From Oligoflexia bacterium (GTDB lineage Bacteria; Bdellovibrionota; Bacteriovoracia; Bacteriovoracales; Bacteriovoracaceae), in assembly GCA_015231955.1 (NCBI GenBank), contig JADGAN010000009.1, positions 1-64,000 of the forward strand: a stretch of 64,000 nt of DNA, read 5' to 3'. Made by a program: the position numbers and the translations under genes. Positions within the stretch are counted from its first letter, which is position 1; the number at the start of each line of letters is the position of its first letter. The notes under the pieces are model-generated. The model did no database searches. It worked only from the letters and a program-made list of their open reading frames with translations, and was not told the origin of the DNA. This document shows, one piece after another, positions 3,699 to 64,000 of the stretch.

Positions 3699-3912
3699 CC
3701 GCTCTTCGCTCTATACCTTCACTCTATTGTCATGCTTGTAAAAAAGTTTGCTTTGGCCTAGATAGTGTGACGTGCTCATATTGACAGCAGGGCCCTCAAG
3801 CGCTCCCTACTATTCATTGGCAGGTAGGTCGGGATTTAGGTAGGACATCTTGAAAAAAACCGATTAACTCTAGACCAAAGCAATACTCTTTAATCCCAAC
3901 CTCGCTACTATA

Positions 3913-7836: not shown

Positions 7837-8585
7837 TTTGCAAACTCCTCTTTAAAACGAGCAACCACGGTTGAGAGTCCAGAGAAGAGGGCCTTTGAGA
7901 TAATCCAATGTCCAATATTATACTCTATAAAGAGACGACGCTCTAAAAGTGGGCGTGTACTCTCAAGAGTAAGTCCATGGCCTGCATGGCAAGAGATTTG
8001 ATGTTCCATCAAAAAATTTTTTGCCTGCAAAAAGCGCTGAAAAAAAGCTTCAAGATCATCCTCGTTTAAAACAGCACGCGCGTACTCACCAGTATGGATC
8101 TCGACTGCATCAATAAGTGCAGCTGCCTTAAGCAGGCGTGCGCGCTCCAGCGTCTTTGGACACGCCTCTAAAAAGAGTGATACTTTGATCTTAGTGCCGT
8201 TACTCTTTAACACACGACAAGTATGGTGAACTTTTTCAAAATTTTCTGCTGATAAAAGATCGAGGCCCCCTTCCGTTGTCTTCTCCTCACGTTTTTCAGG
8301 AACCAGACAAACCCAGTCGGGACGCACCTGCATGGCCACATCCAATATCCCCTCATTGCACCCCATCTCTAAATTTAAGAGGCGAGAAAACTCTTTTGTC
8401 ACCATCTGCACCGCAGGTACATCCATATCTTGAATATGCCGTCGATCCTCACGCAAATGAATGGTGATTTGATCGGCACCCGCCGCAAGCGAGGTGCGCG
8501 CGGCCTCCACCACACTAGGGTAATCTTCTCCACGCTGCTGGCGAAGAGTGGCCACATGATCAATATTAACACCTAAACGAATCAT
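7821..8585 (-). CDS. pdxJ: Pyridoxine 5'-phosphate synthase PdxJ
   Basis: Condenses 1-deoxyxylulose 5-phosphate with 3-amino-2-oxopropyl phosphate in the DXP-dependent route to vitamin B6. The 254-residue TIM barrel starts with MIRLGVNIDHVATLRQQRG and carries the family motifs ITIHLREDRRHI, CLVPEKREE.TTEGG, VEIHTG, CHAGHGL and EYNIGHWIISKALF. The length is typical. It lies between glmM and the NAD(P)HX repair gene on one strand, probably a single transcript. Confidence 0.97.
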   Translation of the reverse strand: MIRLGVNIDHVATLRQQRGEDYPSVVEAARTSLAAGADQITIHLREDRRHIQDMDVPAVQMVTKEFSRLLNLEMGCNEGILDVAMQVRPDWVCLVPEKREEKTTEGGLDLLSAENFEKVHHTCRVLKSNGTKIKVSLFLEACPKTLERARLLKAAALIDAVEIHTGEYARAVLNEDDLEAFFQRFLQAKNFLMEHQISCHAGHGLTLESTRPLLERRLFIEYNIGHWIISKALFSGLSTVVARFKEEFAKWESF

Positions 8586-8617
8586 CTCTCAATCCTCCCC
8601 AATAAACTGACTATGGC

Positions 8618-9979
8618 TTATGTTAACTCTTCCACCAACACCTGCTCTAGCTCACTACAAACGCGATGAACCTGATCACTCTCCTCCCCCTCAACCATCA
8701 CACGCACTAAAGGCCCTGTTCCGGAGTAACGAAGTACAATCCGTCCTCTATCTCCAAGTTCACGAATCGCCTTCTCCTGTGCGGCCATCAATCGTGGCAC
8801 GCTATCTAGTGGCGGGCGCGACTTGGTGGTCACATTTTTTAAAATTTGCGGATACAACTTCACTTCACTTGCAAGCTCCGCAAAACTTTTCTTGTAGTAG
8901 AGCATGCACTCAATCACTTTTAGTGCAGACACAATGCCGTCACCAGTGGTGGAGTAGTTTCTAAAAATCAAATGCCCAGAGGGTTCACCCCCAAGAAGTG
9001 CACCACTCTTTCTCATCTGTTCGATGATGTAACGATCCCCTACCTTAGTGCGGTGGAGAGCAAGGCCTAAATCGCGCAGGTAGTGTTCCAAACCTAAGTT
9101 ACTCATGATAGTACCCACAACCTCCTTGCTATTTGCAAGGTCACCCTTATCTCGAAGGTAGCGAGCACACACTCCAATCACCCGATCGCCATTCACCACA
9201 TTGCCTTGGTTATCCACCAAGATCAAACGATCAGCATCGCCATCAAGGCAAATGCCCAAATCGGCACGATAGCGCATCACTTTCTCTGCACACGCCTCAG
9301 GAAACATCGCCCCTGTATTATCGTTAATGTTGGTTCCATTAGGAGAAGCACCTATAACCAGCACCTCAGCGCCAAGCTCAGAAAACACCATTGGCGCCAC
9401 TTTGTAAGCAGCACCGTTAGCACAATCCAGAACCAAGCGCATCCCCTCCAAACTCTTCTTGTTATCAAAGGCCGATTTAGCGTGAACGATATAGCGGCCA
9501 ATCACCTCATCGAGGCGTTTAGTGGAACCAAGATCGCCATCCACCTTGCTCTCAATCCCTGCAGGATTTAGAACCATCGCCTCTAACTCGAGCTCCACCT
9601 CATCGGGGAGTTTATGTCCACTACCATCAAAAATTTTTATTCCATTATCCCAATACTCATTGTGAGAGGCGGAGATCATCACCCCGGCATCGGCGCGCAT
9701 CGACTCCACCAAAAAGGCCACACCCGGAGTTGGCAGCGGCCCCGTCAGGATCCCTCGCCCCCCTTGTGCACACACCCCTGCAGAGAGGGCCTGTTCCAGC
9801 ATATAACAGCTAAGCCTGGTATCTTTGCCGATCACAATCAGTGGACGATAATTTTTACGAAAGCGTTGAAAGTGAGAGGTGATTGCACGCCCGAGGGTGA
9901 AGGCCACCTCACCCGTCATAGGGTAAATATTGGCCTTGCCACGAATGCCATCGGTGCCAAATAAGACTCTCTTCGACAT
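8618..9979 (-). CDS. glmM: Phosphoglucosamine mutase GlmM
   Basis: Interconverts glucosamine 6- and 1-phosphate on the way to UDP-GlcNAc. FGTDGIRGKAN at the N-terminus, the phosphoserine loop MISASHNEYWDNGIK, the metal loop LDGDADR, the sugar loop LLGGEPSGHLI and the C-terminal phosphate loop RYSGTGPLVRVM are all intact. ATG at 9979 is preferred because AGGAGAG precedes it and it gives 453 residues, near family size; a longer frame to 10081 adds an unconserved hydrophobic stretch. It is followed by pdxJ after a 32-base gap. Confidence 0.96.
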   Translation of the reverse strand: MSKRVLFGTDGIRGKANIYPMTGEVAFTLGRAITSHFQRFRKNYRPLIVIGKDTRLSCYMLEQALSAGVCAQGGRGILTGPLPTPGVAFLVESMRADAGVMISASHNEYWDNGIKIFDGSGHKLPDEVELELEAMVLNPAGIESKVDGDLGSTKRLDEVIGRYIVHAKSAFDNKKSLEGMRLVLDCANGAAYKVAPMVFSELGAEVLVIGASPNGTNINDNTGAMFPEACAEKVMRYRADLGICLDGDADRLILVDNQGNVVNGDRVIGVCARYLRDKGDLANSKEVVGTIMSNLGLEHYLRDLGLALHRTKVGDRYIIEQMRKSGALLGGEPSGHLIFRNYSTTGDGIVSALKVIECMLYYKKSFAELASEVKLYPQILKNVTTKSRPPLDSVPRLMAAQEKAIRELGDRGRIVLRYSGTGPLVRVMVEGEESDQVHRVCSELEQVLVEELT

Positions 9980-10102
9980 ATCAATCTCTCCTTGCCATCC
10001 TTTAACTTTTTGACGCAAATAATGTAAAGCTAACAATACACAATAAGCCAGAGAAAAGCAATGAAGAGCAATGAAGAGCAATGGGGAGGAGGATGACTTA
10101 AA

Positions 10103-12115
10103 CTAGGCGGCTTCTTCTTGATCGCTACTATCATCTTCTCTGACGGGACCTTTGACACCATCTATGCGATCATGCGCCTTATATCCATCAAGTGCATCAA
10201 GGATGTCTTGGCTTAACATCATCTTTTTTCTCAAGGCCTCACGGCTAATGCCCATCTCACGAGCGGCCTTCGATTTATTGCCATTGTGACGCTTAATCTC
10301 GCCAACAATGAGATGACGTTCGATCAGGGCCAAGCGATCTTTTAGCACAATAGAAGAGTCGGAAGCATAAGGAATATCATCAAGATAACGCTCACTATTG
10401 GAACTGCTTTCAATAATAGGCGTTGCAAGATTAGTGAGTGAAGTGATCACATGGCTTTTAGGATTATAAAGCACCACTCGCCCTATACAAGTGCGAAGCT
10501 CTCTAATATTTCCCGGCCACTCATACTCCAGAAGTGTTTTAATTACAGAAGGGGCCAATGTTTTTAAAAGAAATCCTTGTCCCTTGCACTCAATTTTTAA
10601 AAAATAGTTAATGAGATCTTTGATGTCATCTTCACGCTTTCTTAGTGGAGGTACAGTCACAAAGGTTTTAGCGATAAACTCAAAAAAGTTACGATTAAAA
10701 CGGCCATCAACAACCATTTTCTCTAAGTTTTTATTAGAACTTACAATAAGCCTCGTATCGAGGACACGATTAGTCTCACCATTTTTATCCCAATTAGGAA
10801 TACGCCCACTGATCATCACTTCCATCAACTTTTTTTGCAATTTAAAAGGCATCACATGAATGGCCTTAATCAGCAGTGTTCCGCCATCGGCAGACTCTAT
10901 TTTTCCCATTGTCTTGTCATTACCAAAAAGCTCCAATTCCAAAGCATCTTCACTTTGACCACCACAATTGATCTCTTCAAATTTTTTAAGACCACGCTTC
11001 CCTTCAAAGTGAAGAATTCTTGCAAGCAATGATTTTCCAGTTCCAGATTCACCATGGATATAGATAGTCGAATCGATATCTTTTAATTTTACAATCGCAT
11101 TTCTTAAATTTGCAATATGTTTGGACTTTCCAATGATCACATGCTGACGATCACTAGGTGTACTAAATTTACGAATGGCCGATTCACTGGAGATAGGATT
11201 GTAATTGTGAAAGACCGATGAAAACACCAAAGAGACCATCTTCATTATTTTTTCATCATCAACGGTAAACCGATCTTCATTCCTTTTATTAACGATCTCT
11301 ACCACCCCAATCACCTTATCCTCACGATTTGTGATGGGATTGCAAATTACCGACTTAGTTTTAATTCCTAATATCTCATCAAATTCGGGAGAAAAACGAA
11401 TATTGTCGTGAATCACGTCTAAATTAATGGAAACACCACTAGTAAATACAGACCCTGCAATCCCTTTCCGATAATCAAATTTCAAGAGTTTTTTATCGAT
11501 GCCGACACAGGAATGCGCCTCTAATTCATTGGTTTCTGGGTTTACTAGCAAGATCGTTGCTCGCTGGGCATTTACAATGCGCACTACCTCTTCCAGCATA
11601 TTACCCACAAACTCACTCTTCTCTGCAAAATTAGTCATGTCTTTAAAGAGAGAGATCATCAGCGAAAACATCTCCAATCCCTCAGATGCAGAGGCATAAC
11701 GATCGACAAGGGCCATTTGCAAAAGACTATCGCGCAGTCTTTCGGGAGAAAAACTTAAAATGTATTGTTCCAAAAAGCGCTTGACATCATCAAGGTCTGT
11801 TTCTTCAAACTCCACACCGTAAAGCAACGACTCTTCTTGAATACCACTGGTAAAGGCGCGAACAATCTGTCCAGAGAGATCAACGTGTTGCTTTTTGAAA
11901 TGCAAGGAGAAGCTTAAGTCTTGGCCAACCGAAAGCCGATGAGTTGTCGTAAACCCAATTCCCTGCAAACTAACATCAACTAGCTTGGCATCATCGATGT
12001 ATTCGGTTTTGCCTTTCTCATTATCAATCTCTACAAGAAATCGAACTTGATCGGCCTCTTCTACCGGTATTCTAAATGACTGGTAAAATTTAAATTCCGA
12101 AAAACTTCTAAGCAT
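10103..12115 (-). CDS. PilZ-GAF-AAA+-Fis regulator with lost sigma-54 motifs
   Basis: About 670 residues. An N-terminal PilZ-like domain (about 10-120) may bind c-di-GMP; a GAF domain (about 165-310) follows; then an AAA+ domain of the NtrC type with Walker A HGESGTGKSLLAR, and a C-terminal Fis helix-turn-helix (NKSKAAREMGISREALRKKM). The GAFTGA loop that contacts sigma-54 is missing (ELFGNDKTMGKIESADGG), and the Walker B region reads GGTLLIKAIHVM instead of GGTLFLDEIG, so both acidic residues are gone. It probably binds but does not hydrolyse nucleotide and acts without sigma-54. ATG at 12115 has AAGGGA upstream; a TTG at 12151 has none. Confidence 0.85.
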   Translation of the reverse strand: MLRSFSEFKFYQSFRIPVEEADQVRFLVEIDNEKGKTEYIDDAKLVDVSLQGIGFTTTHRLSVGQDLSFSLHFKKQHVDLSGQIVRAFTSGIQEESLLYGVEFEETDLDDVKRFLEQYILSFSPERLRDSLLQMALVDRYASASEGLEMFSLMISLFKDMTNFAEKSEFVGNMLEEVVRIVNAQRATILLVNPETNELEAHSCVGIDKKLLKFDYRKGIAGSVFTSGVSINLDVIHDNIRFSPEFDEILGIKTKSVICNPITNREDKVIGVVEIVNKRNEDRFTVDDEKIMKMVSLVFSSVFHNYNPISSESAIRKFSTPSDRQHVIIGKSKHIANLRNAIVKLKDIDSTIYIHGESGTGKSLLARILHFEGKRGLKKFEEINCGGQSEDALELELFGNDKTMGKIESADGGTLLIKAIHVMPFKLQKKLMEVMISGRIPNWDKNGETNRVLDTRLIVSSNKNLEKMVVDGRFNRNFFEFIAKTFVTVPPLRKREDDIKDLINYFLKIECKGQGFLLKTLAPSVIKTLLEYEWPGNIRELRTCIGRVVLYNPKSHVITSLTNLATPIIESSSNSERYLDDIPYASDSSIVLKDRLALIERHLIVGEIKRHNGNKSKAAREMGISREALRKKMMLSQDILDALDGYKAHDRIDGVKGPVREDDSSDQEEAA

Positions 12116-56411: not shown

Positions 56412-56738
56412 TTAAGACTCGCGGATAGGGCGGATTATCAGCTCGAAGCGGCCAGCACTTAAGGCATTTGCCACATCTTCTATTTTTTTCCTTACCTCTA
56501 GCTGACCATCTGACACTTCTGGGATACCGTAGATCATCTCATGCAGAGATATACTGAAGATGCGAGCACATCGTTTGTAGACGTTTATATCAGAGGGAGT
56601 GGCAGTACCACTTAACCATGAGGACACTGATCCCTCACTGACACCAAGGAGACTTGCAATCATTTTCCCCGACATCTCATGCTTCTTGAGCATAGTCTTC
56701 AACGTCTCCGAAAATTTTACAACATCCAAATCGCTCAT
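56412..56738 (-). CDS. XRE-family helix-turn-helix regulator
   Basis: About 108 residues. The HTH (KMIASLLGVSEGSVSSWLSG) is followed by a helical tail. Start at ATG 56738 has GGAG about eight bases upstream; an earlier ATG (56783) lacks one. First gene of a unit with two membrane proteins, so likely their regulator. A large palindrome lies about 150 bp upstream. Confidence 0.8.
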   Translation of the reverse strand: MSDLDVVKFSETLKTMLKKHEMSGKMIASLLGVSEGSVSSWLSGTATPSDINVYKRCARIFSISLHEMIYGIPEVSDGQLEVRKKIEDVANALSAGRFELIIRPIRES

Positions 56739-56889
56739 CTTGCATACTCCGATCTCTTGAGTATTATTTTTCTGTACGCTCATTTATCGGAATAGCATCC
56801 CTGCCTTTGTAGAGGTTATCGGTCAGCCAAAAACATTTAGCTATCTTAGAGCTAAAAAAAAATAAAACACTGTAAACATGGAGAGATAA

Positions 56890-57030: not shown

Positions 57031-57327
57031 TCATTTTAACAGTAGCGTAAGCTTATTAGAAAGGGCCTGGATCTCTTCTGCTATCGAGAGAGCATCAGTG
57101 TATGCACTCTCTGTTTTATTCATCAGCATAGGGATACTTACATCAAGAGCACTTGCAAGTAGTGGCAGAAGCTCCAAGAGCTTTGTCGTCGGTCTACCAT
57201 ACTCTATAGAGCGTAGACAGTGAGGACGGGTACCAATCATAGATGCTAACTGTGACCTTGTAAGCCTCTTACTTAAGCGGCGTTGCTCTACCCGCCTGCC
57301 AAGCTCTACAAGAGAGTCAATGCCCAT
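57031..57327 (-). CDS. XRE-family helix-turn-helix regulator
   Basis: About 98 residues. HTH: RLTRSQLASMIGTRPHCLRSIEYG; a helical tail follows. ATG at 57327 is preceded by GAGGTAACG. It lies downstream of the replication module on the same strand, separated by about 196 bp from the DUF2958 gene, and could control the module. Confidence 0.8.
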   Translation of the reverse strand: MGIDSLVELGRRVEQRRLSKRLTRSQLASMIGTRPHCLRSIEYGRPTTKLLELLPLLASALDVSIPMLMNKTESAYTDALSIAEEIQALSNKLTLLLK

Positions 57328-57523
57328 CACCGTTACCTCCGTTAGTATTGCTGCTACGACTACCATGGCATCTAATTCTTGCGTATTTATCCATGTGATC
57401 TCCTTGCTTAAAGGTTGATAAAAAATCTAAGTGAGTCCTAGCAGCACCAGTATGGACGACGCCACTACTGGAGTTACCAAGACCCACTTAGATTAATTGG
57501 AATGATTGTAAAGAATAAAGGTG

Positions 57524-59511: not shown

Positions 59512-61914
59512 TTACTTAGGATCGTTAGCTTTAAGTGTTAATTTACCATCTTTCAAGTAATGGGTGCCTTCTTTTGCCCAGTTGAACATCCAGTCAGGGT
59601 TAATATTGACATTAACGTCCGGACAATGTTTCTTCATTGTGGAGATAAGAATGGAAGTAACATGTTTAGACATGGTATCCAAGTCACTATCAAGTGGTAA
59701 CATGATAAGGTACTCATCGTGTATGAAGTTTACTACCCAGTACCCGGCCTTCACTAATTCATAGAGGGCCTCTTTTGCTCCATCAGCAGCTAATCCTTGA
59801 AAAGGAGTATTCTTGCTTTGACAGTATGTTGTGTTACCTCTCACTCTTCCGGATGGTAAGATCACATTACTGAATTGACGGAAAAATACTTCCATAAGTT
59901 TGCTTGATCCTTGCATTTTTTTTATGTCGTTAGCGAAGTTCTTTTTCAATGGAAAATCAGATCTCTTTATAACATCCCATGCCCACATCTTTTCTTTTAG
60001 AGTAAACTGACGCTGCGTTGTTTTGGTTTCATTCTGGCCTTCAATGATTCCTTTAAATACAAACTGACTAGTCTCGTCATTTGATCTCCTCCCTGTAAAT
60101 AAACAGTAGTCCTTAAGCATTCCCGATTTTTCCAACTTGCTCAAGTTATCGTCATCAAGATACTTCTTTATTTCCGGAAAAGCATCAAGCCAAATTTGTT
60201 TAAATAATTTAGCTTCATCGATGGAGAAAAATAGTTGATAAGACTTTTTCGCAAGCTTGATAAAACGATTAAAACCAAGACCACCAGGGTACCCAAAGTT
60301 AATTGGCTTTCCTTTTGATTTTTCTTTATCAGTAACTTCTTCAATTGGTCTGCCTTCAATCTTTGAGACAATATATTTATGCAAATCTATTCCACTATTG
60401 ATTTTATCTCTCATCTCACTGTTTCCATATCTCTTATAAGTAGTTTGTGATAACGCCACCAACTCAATTTGCTTGTAGTCGGGCGCAAAGATAACATGAT
60501 TAGGGAGTGCCCTTACCATGTTTCGAACACTACATTCTTTAGTATCTTTTGGAAAATTCTGCACGTTTGGTCGGCAAGAGGAGGTTCTTCCTGTAGAGAC
60601 GAGAGTATTAAATCTAGGATGAAGGACATCTTGATTTCCACTAATAAAATCTAAGAGTTTGGAATTATTTTTGTACTCTAAGTAGTGTTCTATAAAGTCG
60701 TTGTCGACATCTATCTCCCCTAATAACTCCTCTAAATCATCCCCCTTTTTACTAATCTTATCGGCGTTTGTCCTAGGAAGACAGATGTGATATTTCTCTT
60801 CAATTTTACTGAGTATCGCTTGAAGCACTTTATCGGAACCTTTTCCAGGACTCCAGCCAGCAAATTTATCGACGACAATAGCGACACCATTGGACTCAAA
60901 GATGTCGCAAATCTCTTTTTTAACAGAAACCACTTTGATATCATTATCATTACTAAACTTATCTGGGTTAAGTAACAACTCAATCTCAGAGCGTTTGTAT
61001 GATAAATCCACCATGGGTTTATTTTTATCATAGAGATAGTAGCTATCTTGCACTCTTACTAAAGCAGGCATCTTGTTCTCTGCCATTTTATCTGCTTCTT
61101 CTACAGTGTTAGCGGTTAACAAAAAAATTTTGCCACCATATAGATAATCTAGAGAATTACTAATCTTTTTCTGGAGATATGCCTTAATCTCACTCTTTTT
61201 TTCATGATCTACAGGGAGACCATTTTGCGACACACGATAAAGAGCATAAGAACTCTTTAACTGTAAGTTATGGGAGAGTAGAAGTTTACGGTCGACTTTG
61301 AACTTATCACAAAGAGCTATCGCTCTATGAAGAACTTGGTTCCCTATGAGATAAGTGGCAATGGCATCCTTAACAGCATAATCCAGATAAACATAAGGCA
61401 TATCCTGGTATCTTATTTCTCCGCTCGGAAGGATGAACTGTCCAAATGATTCCCTAATGATATTTCCATTATCATCAAGAGTATCCTTTGGTAACTTTGT
61501 TGCTAAATACCTAATGGATAGGTCATCAAGAGATATATGAGGCGTAGCAGATCCAGTTGCGGCAATAGCATTCAGATTCTCCAATAACAAGATATCGATG
61601 ATGGTATCTGTCTCGATGCTATCAAATGGGTTTATCGCCTCGATTTTTGCCGCTACAGCGATGTCAAATGCAGCATTGGCCATGAACACCCTAGAGTTCT
61701 TGTGGGCAGTGAAAAATGGGGATAAGCGCTCTTTCGTGATGACGTAGCATGATTCCCCATTAAATGCAGTGCCAATAACGAAGTCTGGAGTTGCTTGAGT
61801 TTTTTCATCAATCATAGAGGTTTCAGAATCGTAGCTGATAGTGGTGCCTATCTTCCCTAATTCTGGGGCCCAGATAATGACGGGGAAAAGTTTACTTTGG
61901 AATATTGTATTCAT
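59512..61914 (-). CDS. Family A DNA polymerase (phage PolA type)
   Basis: 800 residues. N-terminal 3'-5' exonuclease domain: YDSETSMIDE, MANAAFDIAVA and YLDYAVKDA. Polymerase motifs: motif A FAPDYKQIELVAL (family DYSQIELR), motif B SKGKPINFGYPGGLGF, motif C NFIHDEYLIML. The Arg after IEL is Val and the O-helix Arg is Lys, conservative variation seen in phage enzymes. ATG at 61914 is chosen: GGAG in the end of the primase gene precedes it, two bases after that stop. It acts with the adjacent primase-helicase to copy the element. Confidence 0.93.
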   Translation of the reverse strand: MNTIFQSKLFPVIIWAPELGKIGTTISYDSETSMIDEKTQATPDFVIGTAFNGESCYVITKERLSPFFTAHKNSRVFMANAAFDIAVAAKIEAINPFDSIETDTIIDILLLENLNAIAATGSATPHISLDDLSIRYLATKLPKDTLDDNGNIIRESFGQFILPSGEIRYQDMPYVYLDYAVKDAIATYLIGNQVLHRAIALCDKFKVDRKLLLSHNLQLKSSYALYRVSQNGLPVDHEKKSEIKAYLQKKISNSLDYLYGGKIFLLTANTVEEADKMAENKMPALVRVQDSYYLYDKNKPMVDLSYKRSEIELLLNPDKFSNDNDIKVVSVKKEICDIFESNGVAIVVDKFAGWSPGKGSDKVLQAILSKIEEKYHICLPRTNADKISKKGDDLEELLGEIDVDNDFIEHYLEYKNNSKLLDFISGNQDVLHPRFNTLVSTGRTSSCRPNVQNFPKDTKECSVRNMVRALPNHVIFAPDYKQIELVALSQTTYKRYGNSEMRDKINSGIDLHKYIVSKIEGRPIEEVTDKEKSKGKPINFGYPGGLGFNRFIKLAKKSYQLFFSIDEAKLFKQIWLDAFPEIKKYLDDDNLSKLEKSGMLKDYCLFTGRRSNDETSQFVFKGIIEGQNETKTTQRQFTLKEKMWAWDVIKRSDFPLKKNFANDIKKMQGSSKLMEVFFRQFSNVILPSGRVRGNTTYCQSKNTPFQGLAADGAKEALYELVKAGYWVVNFIHDEYLIMLPLDSDLDTMSKHVTSILISTMKKHCPDVNVNINPDWMFNWAKEGTHYLKDGKLTLKANDPK

Positions 61915-61916
61915 GC

Positions 61917-64000
61917 TTAGCTCCATTTTAGGTTATTGCCTGTGGTAATTACTTGGTGCTTGTTGGAATCAGTTAGGCTTTGCAGACATGCGGACGTTGC
62001 GGACATCTCCTGCCCCCCTATATATGTAGAAAAAATATTTTTATTTTCAGAAATATTTTTATTTTCTCCTACATAGGGTAGTAAGAAGTCCGCATGTCCG
62101 CCAGACTGTTCTTCTCCCCCATCATTACTGGGATTTTTGCCTGCGGACATTAATTTTTCAGATGTCCGCTCATGTCCGCAATGTCCGCAATCTGAGGATC
62201 TTTTCGCAGAATATTTCGCTTGCCTAGCGTGGGTATCATTCCTATCAATGTCTAAAATGATTGCCCCTCTAAAATCATCCTCCGTCTCGATAGGTAATTC
62301 CCTCTTGTTATATGGCCCTAGTAATTTGCCAAGAAAAGTTGCTTTGGCTTTTGAACTTTCCTTACTCATGAGTTGAGTGCGAAACAGCTCCTTTTCTTCT
62401 GCCATGCTCACCAACTCTGCGGCAGTAAATACTTGATCCAAGTGTCCTTCGAAGAGGTAAGCAATTTCTTGCAGGGTATCGTCAAATTTAGCCGCAGCCT
62501 CATCCGCATTGCTTAGAAATTCACTATGGCCGTTTGCCTCTAAGATACCTCCGATGATTCCAGCATACCGCTTGAAGCGGTAATCAATGTCCTTGATGGG
62601 TTTTCCCTTAGCTTTCCATACCTCTATAAAACCAATCAGTTCTGCCAATAATTGCTCCCGATGCTCTTCTGCATAAGCAGCAGGATCGAGGATACAAAAT
62701 TTCCTTTTCGATGGATTGTCTGGGTAGTAGAGTTCTACAGGGAGCGCGCGAGTTATTAAGTCCTTATTCAAAGAGGCATCATTCATACTGAGCATGAATA
62801 GAATTGTGTTAGGCCGCTCTATATTCTCGGTCTTTCCAAGTATCCTAGCAGCGTAAACTTTAGATGTTATCATCCCTTCTAAAAACTGGGATTCGATCTT
62901 ATTACCTCTTACGTTATCGATAAAAACGTAGTCGTTATTACGAGCATGGACGGTAATTGCACGCTCAAACTGCTCATCATTAGGATTGTAGTTAACTCGT
63001 GGGGATTGTTTTCCGCTATAGATTATTGCGATAAGGTTTCCTAACAGTGATTTCCCCAAGCTAGGTTGATTGCCTACAATTGCCAAAAAGGGGCATTCTC
63101 CCATGAACATTGTAGGAAGTAGACGGCTTATCAACGCTCCAAGGAAATTATCTCTATCCGCCATGGATTTAAAACAAAACTCGTTCAATAACTTACTTAG
63201 ATGTGTGGTGGTCTTTTTATTATTCAGATCGTGATTAAGCGCGCCTGATGATAAGTATATTGGTACTATCTCTTTGCCGAAATAATAAATCTTTGAGGAT
63301 TCATTGAACCCAGGTTTCGCAATGATAAATTCGGAGTCAAACACTGGTGCAATTACAAAAGAAACTATCTCTCTAAATGCTTTCCTCATGAGTGGATTTA
63401 GTATAAAACCTTTTGCTATCTCGCTAGGAATTAGATCGTACTTAGTACCATCTTTTGTATTAGTTGCATACTCCGAGAAGTTGTTGAAAATTCCAGAAAA
63501 ATTTTTTTCGGTTAACGTATCAAAACGATCACCAAAGATATTTATCAATTGATTACCAAAGCTGAAAATATCTTTGTCAATTAATGTAGAAAGCATCTTC
63601 GCAAACAATTGATTTCTTGGGCCGGCATCATCTAATAAAAAACCAAGTCCTGCCTTTTCTTTGTTTTTTGCTTGAGATTGAACTCGCTTTATGGCCTTAT
63701 CTAACTGCCCCTTAGTCACCCCCGCTACCTTACAGATAGCTTTTCTCAATAATGCATATTCGACCTCATCATCAGTAACGGCCAAATATCTCACTACTTT
63801 ATCATAATCATCCTTTCTTTCTGAGTATCCAACATCGTCCGGAAGTGATTTAATATACCCAGAAAACGGGTACGCCCATGCTTTATCTATGAGAAACTTA
63901 AAAGCTTCGACACCATTCTCTACGATAAATTCATCAACACCCATCTCTTGTTGTTTGTTCGCCTCTAAATGAATAATATACACCTCGGCACCTCTGTCTC
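61917..64000 (-). CDS. Toprim/AAA+ primase-helicase (5' end beyond the window)
   Basis: At least 693 residues visible. The frame stays open to the window edge (upstream codons give DRGAEV), and the visible start AEVYIIHLEANKQQEMGVDEF is the end of a Toprim-type domain (KGxDD-like), so this is a partial gene. The helicase part has Walker A VGNQPSLGKSLLGNL and Walker B DYVFIDNVRGN. The C-terminal 100 residues are repetitive because of the iterons in the DNA. Such proteins prime and unwind phage and satellite origins. Confidence 0.85.
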   Translation of the reverse strand, partial: DRGAEVYIIHLEANKQQEMGVDEFIVENGVEAFKFLIDKAWAYPFSGYIKSLPDDVGYSERKDDYDKVVRYLAVTDDEVEYALLRKAICKVAGVTKGQLDKAIKRVQSQAKNKEKAGLGFLLDDAGPRNQLFAKMLSTLIDKDIFSFGNQLINIFGDRFDTLTEKNFSGIFNNFSEYATNTKDGTKYDLIPSEIAKGFILNPLMRKAFREIVSFVIAPVFDSEFIIAKPGFNESSKIYYFGKEIVPIYLSSGALNHDLNNKKTTTHLSKLLNEFCFKSMADRDNFLGALISRLLPTMFMGECPFLAIVGNQPSLGKSLLGNLIAIIYSGKQSPRVNYNPNDEQFERAITVHARNNDYVFIDNVRGNKIESQFLEGMITSKVYAARILGKTENIERPNTILFMLSMNDASLNKDLITRALPVELYYPDNPSKRKFCILDPAAYAEEHREQLLAELIGFIEVWKAKGKPIKDIDYRFKRYAGIIGGILEANGHSEFLSNADEAAAKFDDTLQEIAYLFEGHLDQVFTAAELVSMAEEKELFRTQLMSKESSKAKATFLGKLLGPYNKRELPIETEDDFRGAIILDIDRNDTHARQAKYSAKRSSDCGHCGHERTSEKLMSAGKNPSNDGGEEQSGGHADFLLPYVGENKNISENKNIFSTYIGGQEMSATSACLQSLTDSNKHQVITTGNNLKWS
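61981..62190. other. Candidate replication origin: GCGGACA iterons flanking AT-rich direct repeat
   Basis: TGTCCGC or its complement GCGGACA, exact or with one change, occurs about eight times: near 61989, 61999, 62088, 62095, 62142, and at 62163, 62173 and 62182 in tandem at about 10-bp spacing. Between the two groups AAATATTTTTATTTTC repeats at 62033-62048 and 62051-62066, an easily melted region. The block is inside the 3' end of the primase-helicase gene. Satellite P4 has origins with iterons bound by its primase-helicase, a similar plan. The role is inferred. Confidence 0.6.

Follow-up and report, generated by a model that had tools for sequence, protein, structure and literature searches.

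The window, as we call the whole 64-kb stretch of DNA analysed here, ends within a large gene for a putative primase-helicase, which is followed by a gene for a family A DNA polymerase (Table 1). The helicase gene carries a DUF3854 (Toprim) domain (E 4.8e-19), and its helicase region, which is AAA+/SF3-like, matches phrog_10537 (E 5e-28). The full-length structure model of the protein matches DnaG cores (best E 2.7e-5) and the homologue encoded in genome G259 has DnaG zinc ribbon and DNAG_N domains; together these matches support the label primase-helicase. Confidence in the structure models is modest (mean pLDDT 51-57, Z <8). Near the C-terminus we predict a winged helix, modelled with a pLDDT of 52-89 per block, with Z scores of 6-7 to winged-helix chains that are not clearly above those of common arrangements. 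The C-terminal model also has moderate matches (all Z <8) to the ASFV PrimPol, the SaPI5 primase-helicase, PriRep1 and the SCCmec Cch. A profile search against PDB chains up to E=1 returned no match for the helicase. Only its N-terminal region resembles CyRepA1 proteins (tblastn), and an NCBIfam search up to E=0.01, with the CyRepA1 model included, gave no match, so that we do not assign it to the CyRepA1 plasmid replication proteins.

Further on, the same contig encodes a Prim-Pol, a RuvC-like resolvase and two tyrosine integrases. Given these genes and the polymerase, the helicase locus looks like part of an integrated replicating element. The two integrases are different, have opposite orientation and lie within 3 kb (positions 8002-9120 (+) and 9746-10927 (-) of L002). 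Directly upstream of the helicase gene and in the same orientation is a gene for a 330-aa protein (contig 65133-66125 (-), or 5133-6125 in L002) for which we found no Pfam or PHROG match. A search for flanking att repeats gave just one 15-nt AT-rich match, and the ends of the element were not found.

Table 1. Features at the 3' end of the helicase gene and in its surroundings (window positions; F and R, forward and reverse on the coding strand of the helicase gene).
Feature	Position	Strand	Sequence or basis
Family A DNA polymerase gene, directly downstream of the helicase gene; homologues suggest a start at 61914	59512..61926	-	
Primase-helicase (initiator) gene, 904-aa ORF, runs past the window end to contig position 64631	61917..64000	-	ORF, domain matches
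Tail codons 813-904 (92 codons), containing the whole array	61920..62195	-	predicted disordered, without counterpart in homologues
Iteron 9 (R)	61981..61989	+	TGCAGACAT
Iteron 8 (R)	61989..61997	+	TGCGGACGT
Iteron 7 (R)	61998..62006	+	TGCGGACAT
Core between inward-facing iteron groups, 83 bp, 72% A+T	62005..62087		proposed melting region
TATAGGG word, present in viral cores too (CATAGGG in G259)	62016..62022	-	sequence match
16-bp AT direct repeat AAATATTTTTATTTTC, two copies	62033-62048, 62051-62066	+	exact repeat
CTATGTAGGAGAAAAT, exact in the G205 core too	62061..62076	-	sequence match
Iteron 6 (F)	62086..62094	-	TGCGGACTT
Iteron 5 (F)	62094..62102	-	GGCGGACAT
Iteron 4 (R)	62142..62150	+	TGCGGACAT
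Iteron 3 (F)	62162..62170	-	AGCGGACAT
Iteron 2 (F)	62172..62180	-	TGCGGACAT
Iteron 1 (F)	62181..62189	-	TGCGGACAT
Winged-helix codons (residues ~716-814), proposed iteron-binding domain	62190..62486	-	structure model and VIA-align; prediction

The 3' end of the helicase gene contains an array of short repeated sites (iterons). The original prediction had placed about eight GCGGACA-like sites here, in both orientations; the sites are real, and their number is nine. Within 61981-62189 there are nine TGCGGACAT-like sites (at most one mismatch), as compared with 14 across the whole window. They fall on both strands and in all three reading frames of the helicase gene, and their order on its coding strand is FFF, R, FF, the core, RRR. 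The claim that three of them lie on one helical face holds roughly for the group at 62162/62172/62181, with spacings of 10 and 9 bp, but the spacings at 61981/61989/61998 are 8 and 9 bp. Elsewhere in the window, no 215-bp stretch has more than two GCGGACAT sites (at most one mismatch). Exact GCGGACA occurs 12 times in the window, half of these (6/12) inside the array, while shuffles of the whole window had 3.6 on average and 9 at most. A search of the 5.6 Mb genome for the tandem pair TGCGGACATTGCGGACAT (up to three mismatches) gave the array and, with three mismatches, one place elsewhere. Thus, counts, shuffles and the tandem-pair search agree that the motif is not equally dense elsewhere in the window or the genome.

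The first iteron of the array follows within a few codons of the end of the predicted winged helix, and the tail through which it runs is predicted to be disordered (pLDDT ~24-31). We recoded the same 78 residues synonymously, with random codons drawn from the helicase and polymerase genes, and 0 of 20,000 recodings reached nine sites; the best had six. Given this result, and with sites in three frames and on both strands, the array is not accounted for by protein coding; it is a feature of the DNA and not of the peptide.

A match to the helicase was identified in 7 of 368 genomes of the phylum, the source genome included. Of these, G259 and G205 are the two informative genomes that have an array. 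In G259, CCGGAACTA-like sites, with seven exact copies of CGGAAC, extend across the helicase stop codon, and G205 has CCGGACCT sites at the helicase 3' end. A single-sequence search for viral homologues found none; an alignment-based search found nine contigs (L051-L057 and L058-L059), ~32-34% identical, in which the 3' end of the helicase gene bears 7-9 copies of a word resembling TCCGGACGTT or TGCAGACGTT. A further viral search yielded two more contigs with the TCCGGACGTT word, as well as arrays at the helicase 3' end built from TGCGGACGTT (L106), TGCGGAACGTT (L109), TGCGGAACCTT (L110) and TGCCGAACGTT (L111). For the site lists of the relatives we chose the consensus words ourselves and tolerated one or two mismatches. 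In G259, G205 and 15 IMG/VR viral contigs, the helicase 3' end holds the strongest 7-mer cluster of its locus. Among more distant relatives (tblastn), an array lies within ~350 bp past the stop codon in pCM32, pWTY27, NBC_01335 and a Streptomyces cyaneofuscatus plasmid, as it does in the methanogen virus vir525.

In most homologues the array extends across the stop codon or lies just past it. The relatives tabulated have one to five sites before the stop codon and the remainder after, and only in the window element do all nine precede it; on these sequences, full inclusion of the array in the ORF appears to be special to the window element. Rather than keeping the peptide and lacking the motif, the homologues present the reverse, as the tail is lacking and the array is kept with a changed sequence. 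Three of the viral contigs (L106, L058 and L051) have an extra small group of sites around the stop codon, ~100-150 bp before the main array, which we found in this viral group only.

An array at the helicase end is not universal among related helicases. It is absent in G085, RcXuper, phiAsp2, phiCbK, DSS3P8, TPWB-08, pA17P3 and N15, and G174 encodes an intact homologue (33% identity) that lacks the tail, with no array in 20 kb. In G174 either the origin has moved elsewhere or the element is defective. The helicase-polymerase pair of this genome is homologous to that of the window, and its genes overlap (L011 8289-12841).

The sites of the relatives also share an arrangement. We anchored all site lists on the window array, with its third F site as position 0, and counted a match when a site lay within 3 bp in equal orientation. 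The layout of the window array is F-19 F-10 F0 R20 F68 F76 R164 R173 R181, close to F-29 F-10 F0 R21 F69 F78 R155 R165 R174 in L110, F-19 F-10 F1 R21 F59 F68 F77 R154 R163 R172 in L058 and F-16 F2 R20 F69 F77 R163 R179 F184 in G259. Seven arrays match 7-8 of the nine window sites, as did 0 of 2000 random arrays of equal size, with sites placed uniformly and tandem spacing ignored. G205, which has five sites only, matches 4/9 (19 of 2000 random arrays). As the viral arrays fall into only about two groups, the lineages that count as independent are these two, the window element, G259 and G205. In the other arrays of this nearer family, the inner facing core words are 71-89 bp apart (83 bp in the window). 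For the distant replicons, the exact layout at 3 bp tolerance was not significant in pWTY27, vir525 and NBC_01335, and was equalled by 12 of 500 random arrays for pCM32 and 1 of 500 for the S. cyaneofuscatus plasmid; we thus claim fixed spacing for the nearer family only.

The relatives therefore retain the order of the sites, their spacing and the core length, but not the repeated word, which is replaced in all copies together. Such a pattern is what a system of initiator and sites produces, rather than a peptide, a promoter or chance. The proposed search for homologues with the motif at the same position thus had a positive outcome, in that an array is present at the helicase 3' end with nearly fixed order and spacing, although its words differ. 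The viral contigs L051-L057 and L058-L059 have helicases that are ~88% identical and one shared layout, with TCCGGACGTT as the word in the former and TGCAGACGTT in the latter. The predicted wing also differs between them (KRSFNGQYNQYQVF and KRISGGRHTQYQVF, respectively).

The AT-rich 16-bp direct repeat that the sites had been said to flank is present as an exact repeat, and the 50-bp stretch at 62019 has 88% A+T, which places it in the top 0.02% among 50-bp segments of the window. The cores of relatives range from 38 to 81% A+T, with some GC-rich viral cores at 38-42%, and the repeat is private to the window element; we thus rejected it as a conserved feature. The sequence CTATGTAGGAGAAAAT occurs exactly at three places in the 368 genomes, of which one is the window core and one the G205 core. 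As an exact DNA probe it matched 25 viral contigs, none of which had an iteron cluster, and so we regard the matches there as chance or unrelated. The word TATGTAG is common to the window core, the G205 core and a viral core, and a 7-mer in all three was found in 12 of 3000 shuffles. What is conserved is the layout of the sites (F F R, F F, ~80 bp, R R), and not an AT repeat with helical phasing.

The closest parallel to a characterized system is the Streptomyces plasmid pWTY27, whose RepA matches the window helicase with an hhalign probability of 99.3% (E 8.5e-21, 284 columns). The replication locus of pWTY27 comprises repAB and the iteron, its replication is bidirectional, and RepA binds the iterons in EMSA and DNase I footprint experiments (PMC3583192). 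As in the window, its iterons are short, occur in both orientations and have the order F F R, F F, core, R R. Unlike in the window, the array begins 52 bp past the stop codon, the gaps are shorter with a core of 64 bp, the exact spacing does not match, and a separate protein, RepB, is the primase. The pWTY27 authors put the emphasis on a 105-bp inverted repeat and propose recognition of the folded inverted repeat (PMC3583192). In SaPI Rep and SCCmec Cch2, the C-terminal domain recognises iterons directly downstream of their own genes (PMC7581432). Like the window helicase, SaPI Rep/PriRep and SCCmec Cch2 are AAA+ helicases of mobile elements with iterons adjoining their own genes, and in SCCmec a polymerase gene belongs to the helicase operon; the differences are that the origin is downstream of the gene and that the iterons are not the same. 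The likeness of the window helicase to this group (SaPI5 primase-helicase, PriRep1, Cch) is a moderate similarity of fold, with no significant sequence match to solved chains.

An origin within an initiator gene is known from phage lambda, where the coding sequence of the O gene contains both an AT-rich tract and the iterons that its product binds (PMC7466680). The window array is like ori-lambda in having iterons beside an AT-rich tract inside the initiator ORF, a likeness of placement in which the helicase would be the binder. It is not a member of the lambda type, as its initiator is a DUF3854-helicase and not O-type. Lambda O is not a helicase, its iterons are all on one side of the AT tract, the origin is in mid-gene, and the system needs P and the host DnaB. 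The repA of the N15 and PY54 prophages is a large primase-helicase gene stated to be sufficient for their circular replication, and the origin is inside repA. In the 3' end of N15 repA we found no 7-mer cluster comparable to the window array. The Sulfolobus plasmid pRN1 encodes a primase-helicase with a winged helix, orf904, that works at an origin immediately following its gene (PMC4234260). Unlike in the window, this origin is downstream of the gene and is a 100-bp stem-loop with no iteron array, and the primase is of archaeal type. On the cyanobacterial plasmid pAL20118b (L075, NZ_CP149439.1), positions 3770-3860 inside a rep ORF of the CyRepA1 family contain GGGTGCAA, TTTCCTATATATAAATAAAAAAG and four copies of ATTGCACC, the latter at 15-bp steps and read as (KLHPN) repeats; this is possibly a second in-gene iteron array in a DUF3854 Rep. 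Other CyRepA1 plasmids checked for an in-gene array had little or nothing.

Given the density of the sites, the conserved placement and layout in relatives, and the binding of a comparable array by the homologous pWTY27 RepA, we propose that 61981-62189 is the origin of replication of an integrated mobile element, situated wholly in the 3' end of the gene for its own initiator primase-helicase and bound by that helicase (probability roughly 0.88). The original prediction of an iteron origin, and of its position inside the gene whose product would use it, is thus supported; all nine sites and the core lie within the 904-aa ORF. Its description as a standard iteron origin with a DNA-unwinding element is upheld for the origin, but the AT repeat and helical phasing are not what the relatives keep. 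By homology with pWTY27 RepA, and on the model of SaPI Rep and SCCmec Cch2, the nine 9-bp iterons are most likely contacted by the window helicase through its predicted C-terminal winged helix. The two inward-facing groups of iterons would place helicase assemblies on both sides of the AT-rich core, which, as in homologous systems, would melt and allow helicases to load in both directions, giving two forks. The element's own family A polymerase and the nearby Prim-Pol may join in synthesis.

We considered whether the array might instead be a set of operator or partition sites for a repressor or partition protein. Operators and centromeres, too, typically consist of clustered sites in both orientations, and two HTH genes lie nearby (56412-56783 and 57031-57366). 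However, the partner kept across relatives is the helicase with the array at its 3' end, while the surrounding genes differ, and in pWTY27 it is the helicase itself that binds the homologous array, which belongs to the replication locus. For an operator, moreover, the end of a gene is no promoter-type position, and the sites are absent from the upstream regions examined. We thus consider operator or partition sites very unlikely. Marginally less probable still is that the inverted sites pair into a stem within the helicase-polymerase mRNA (an attenuator or processing site) or a cruciform signal as in pRN1. The strand does fold far better than shuffles (z -8.3), the pRN1 stem-loop origin lies behind a primase-helicase gene, and recognition of a folded repeat was proposed for pWTY27, but a strong fold follows from inverted iterons as such. 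In addition, tandem direct pairs with fixed spacing are conserved besides the inverted ones, and the word is identical in all copies, beyond what base pairing alone demands. A folded origin would be a variant of the initiator-bound origin rather than an alternative to it.

We give next to no weight to the explanation that the repeats are there for the protein, as a low-complexity tail with a function in the helicase. In its favour, no stop codon interrupts the frame within the array, and only 6 of 2000 shuffles are stop-free. Against this stand the use of three frames and both strands, the failure of synonymous recodings to reach nine sites, the predicted disorder of the tail, and the homologues that do without it.

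Returning to an origin bound by its own helicase, a more specific possibility is that the initiator recognises its sites by a fixed spatial code, F(-10) F(0) R(+20) F(+68) F(+77), a 71-89 bp core and R R, that the word is swapped in every copy simultaneously, presumably along with the winged helix, and that in the window element the ORF has grown through the whole origin. We see even odds for this proposal. No report of a fixed layout with interchangeable words was found in the literature searched, the scope of which did not extend to the primary SaPI, N15 and PY54 papers. The kind of origin is itself already known; apparently new are the inclusion of the whole origin inside the helicase ORF and the rigid layout with interchangeable words.

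The site layout offers a signature, independent of the word, for finding the origins of poorly known phages and integrative elements. Arrays in which the layout is constant and the word is switched, such as those with TCCGGACGTT and TGCAGACGTT, are natural experiments on how the DNA-binding specificity of an initiator changes, and they also bear on the evolution of replicon incompatibility. The window would add an example of an origin that coincides wholly with coding sequence, here that of a helicase gene. If the reading of a spatial code is true, one stretch of DNA would serve at once as origin and as coding sequence.
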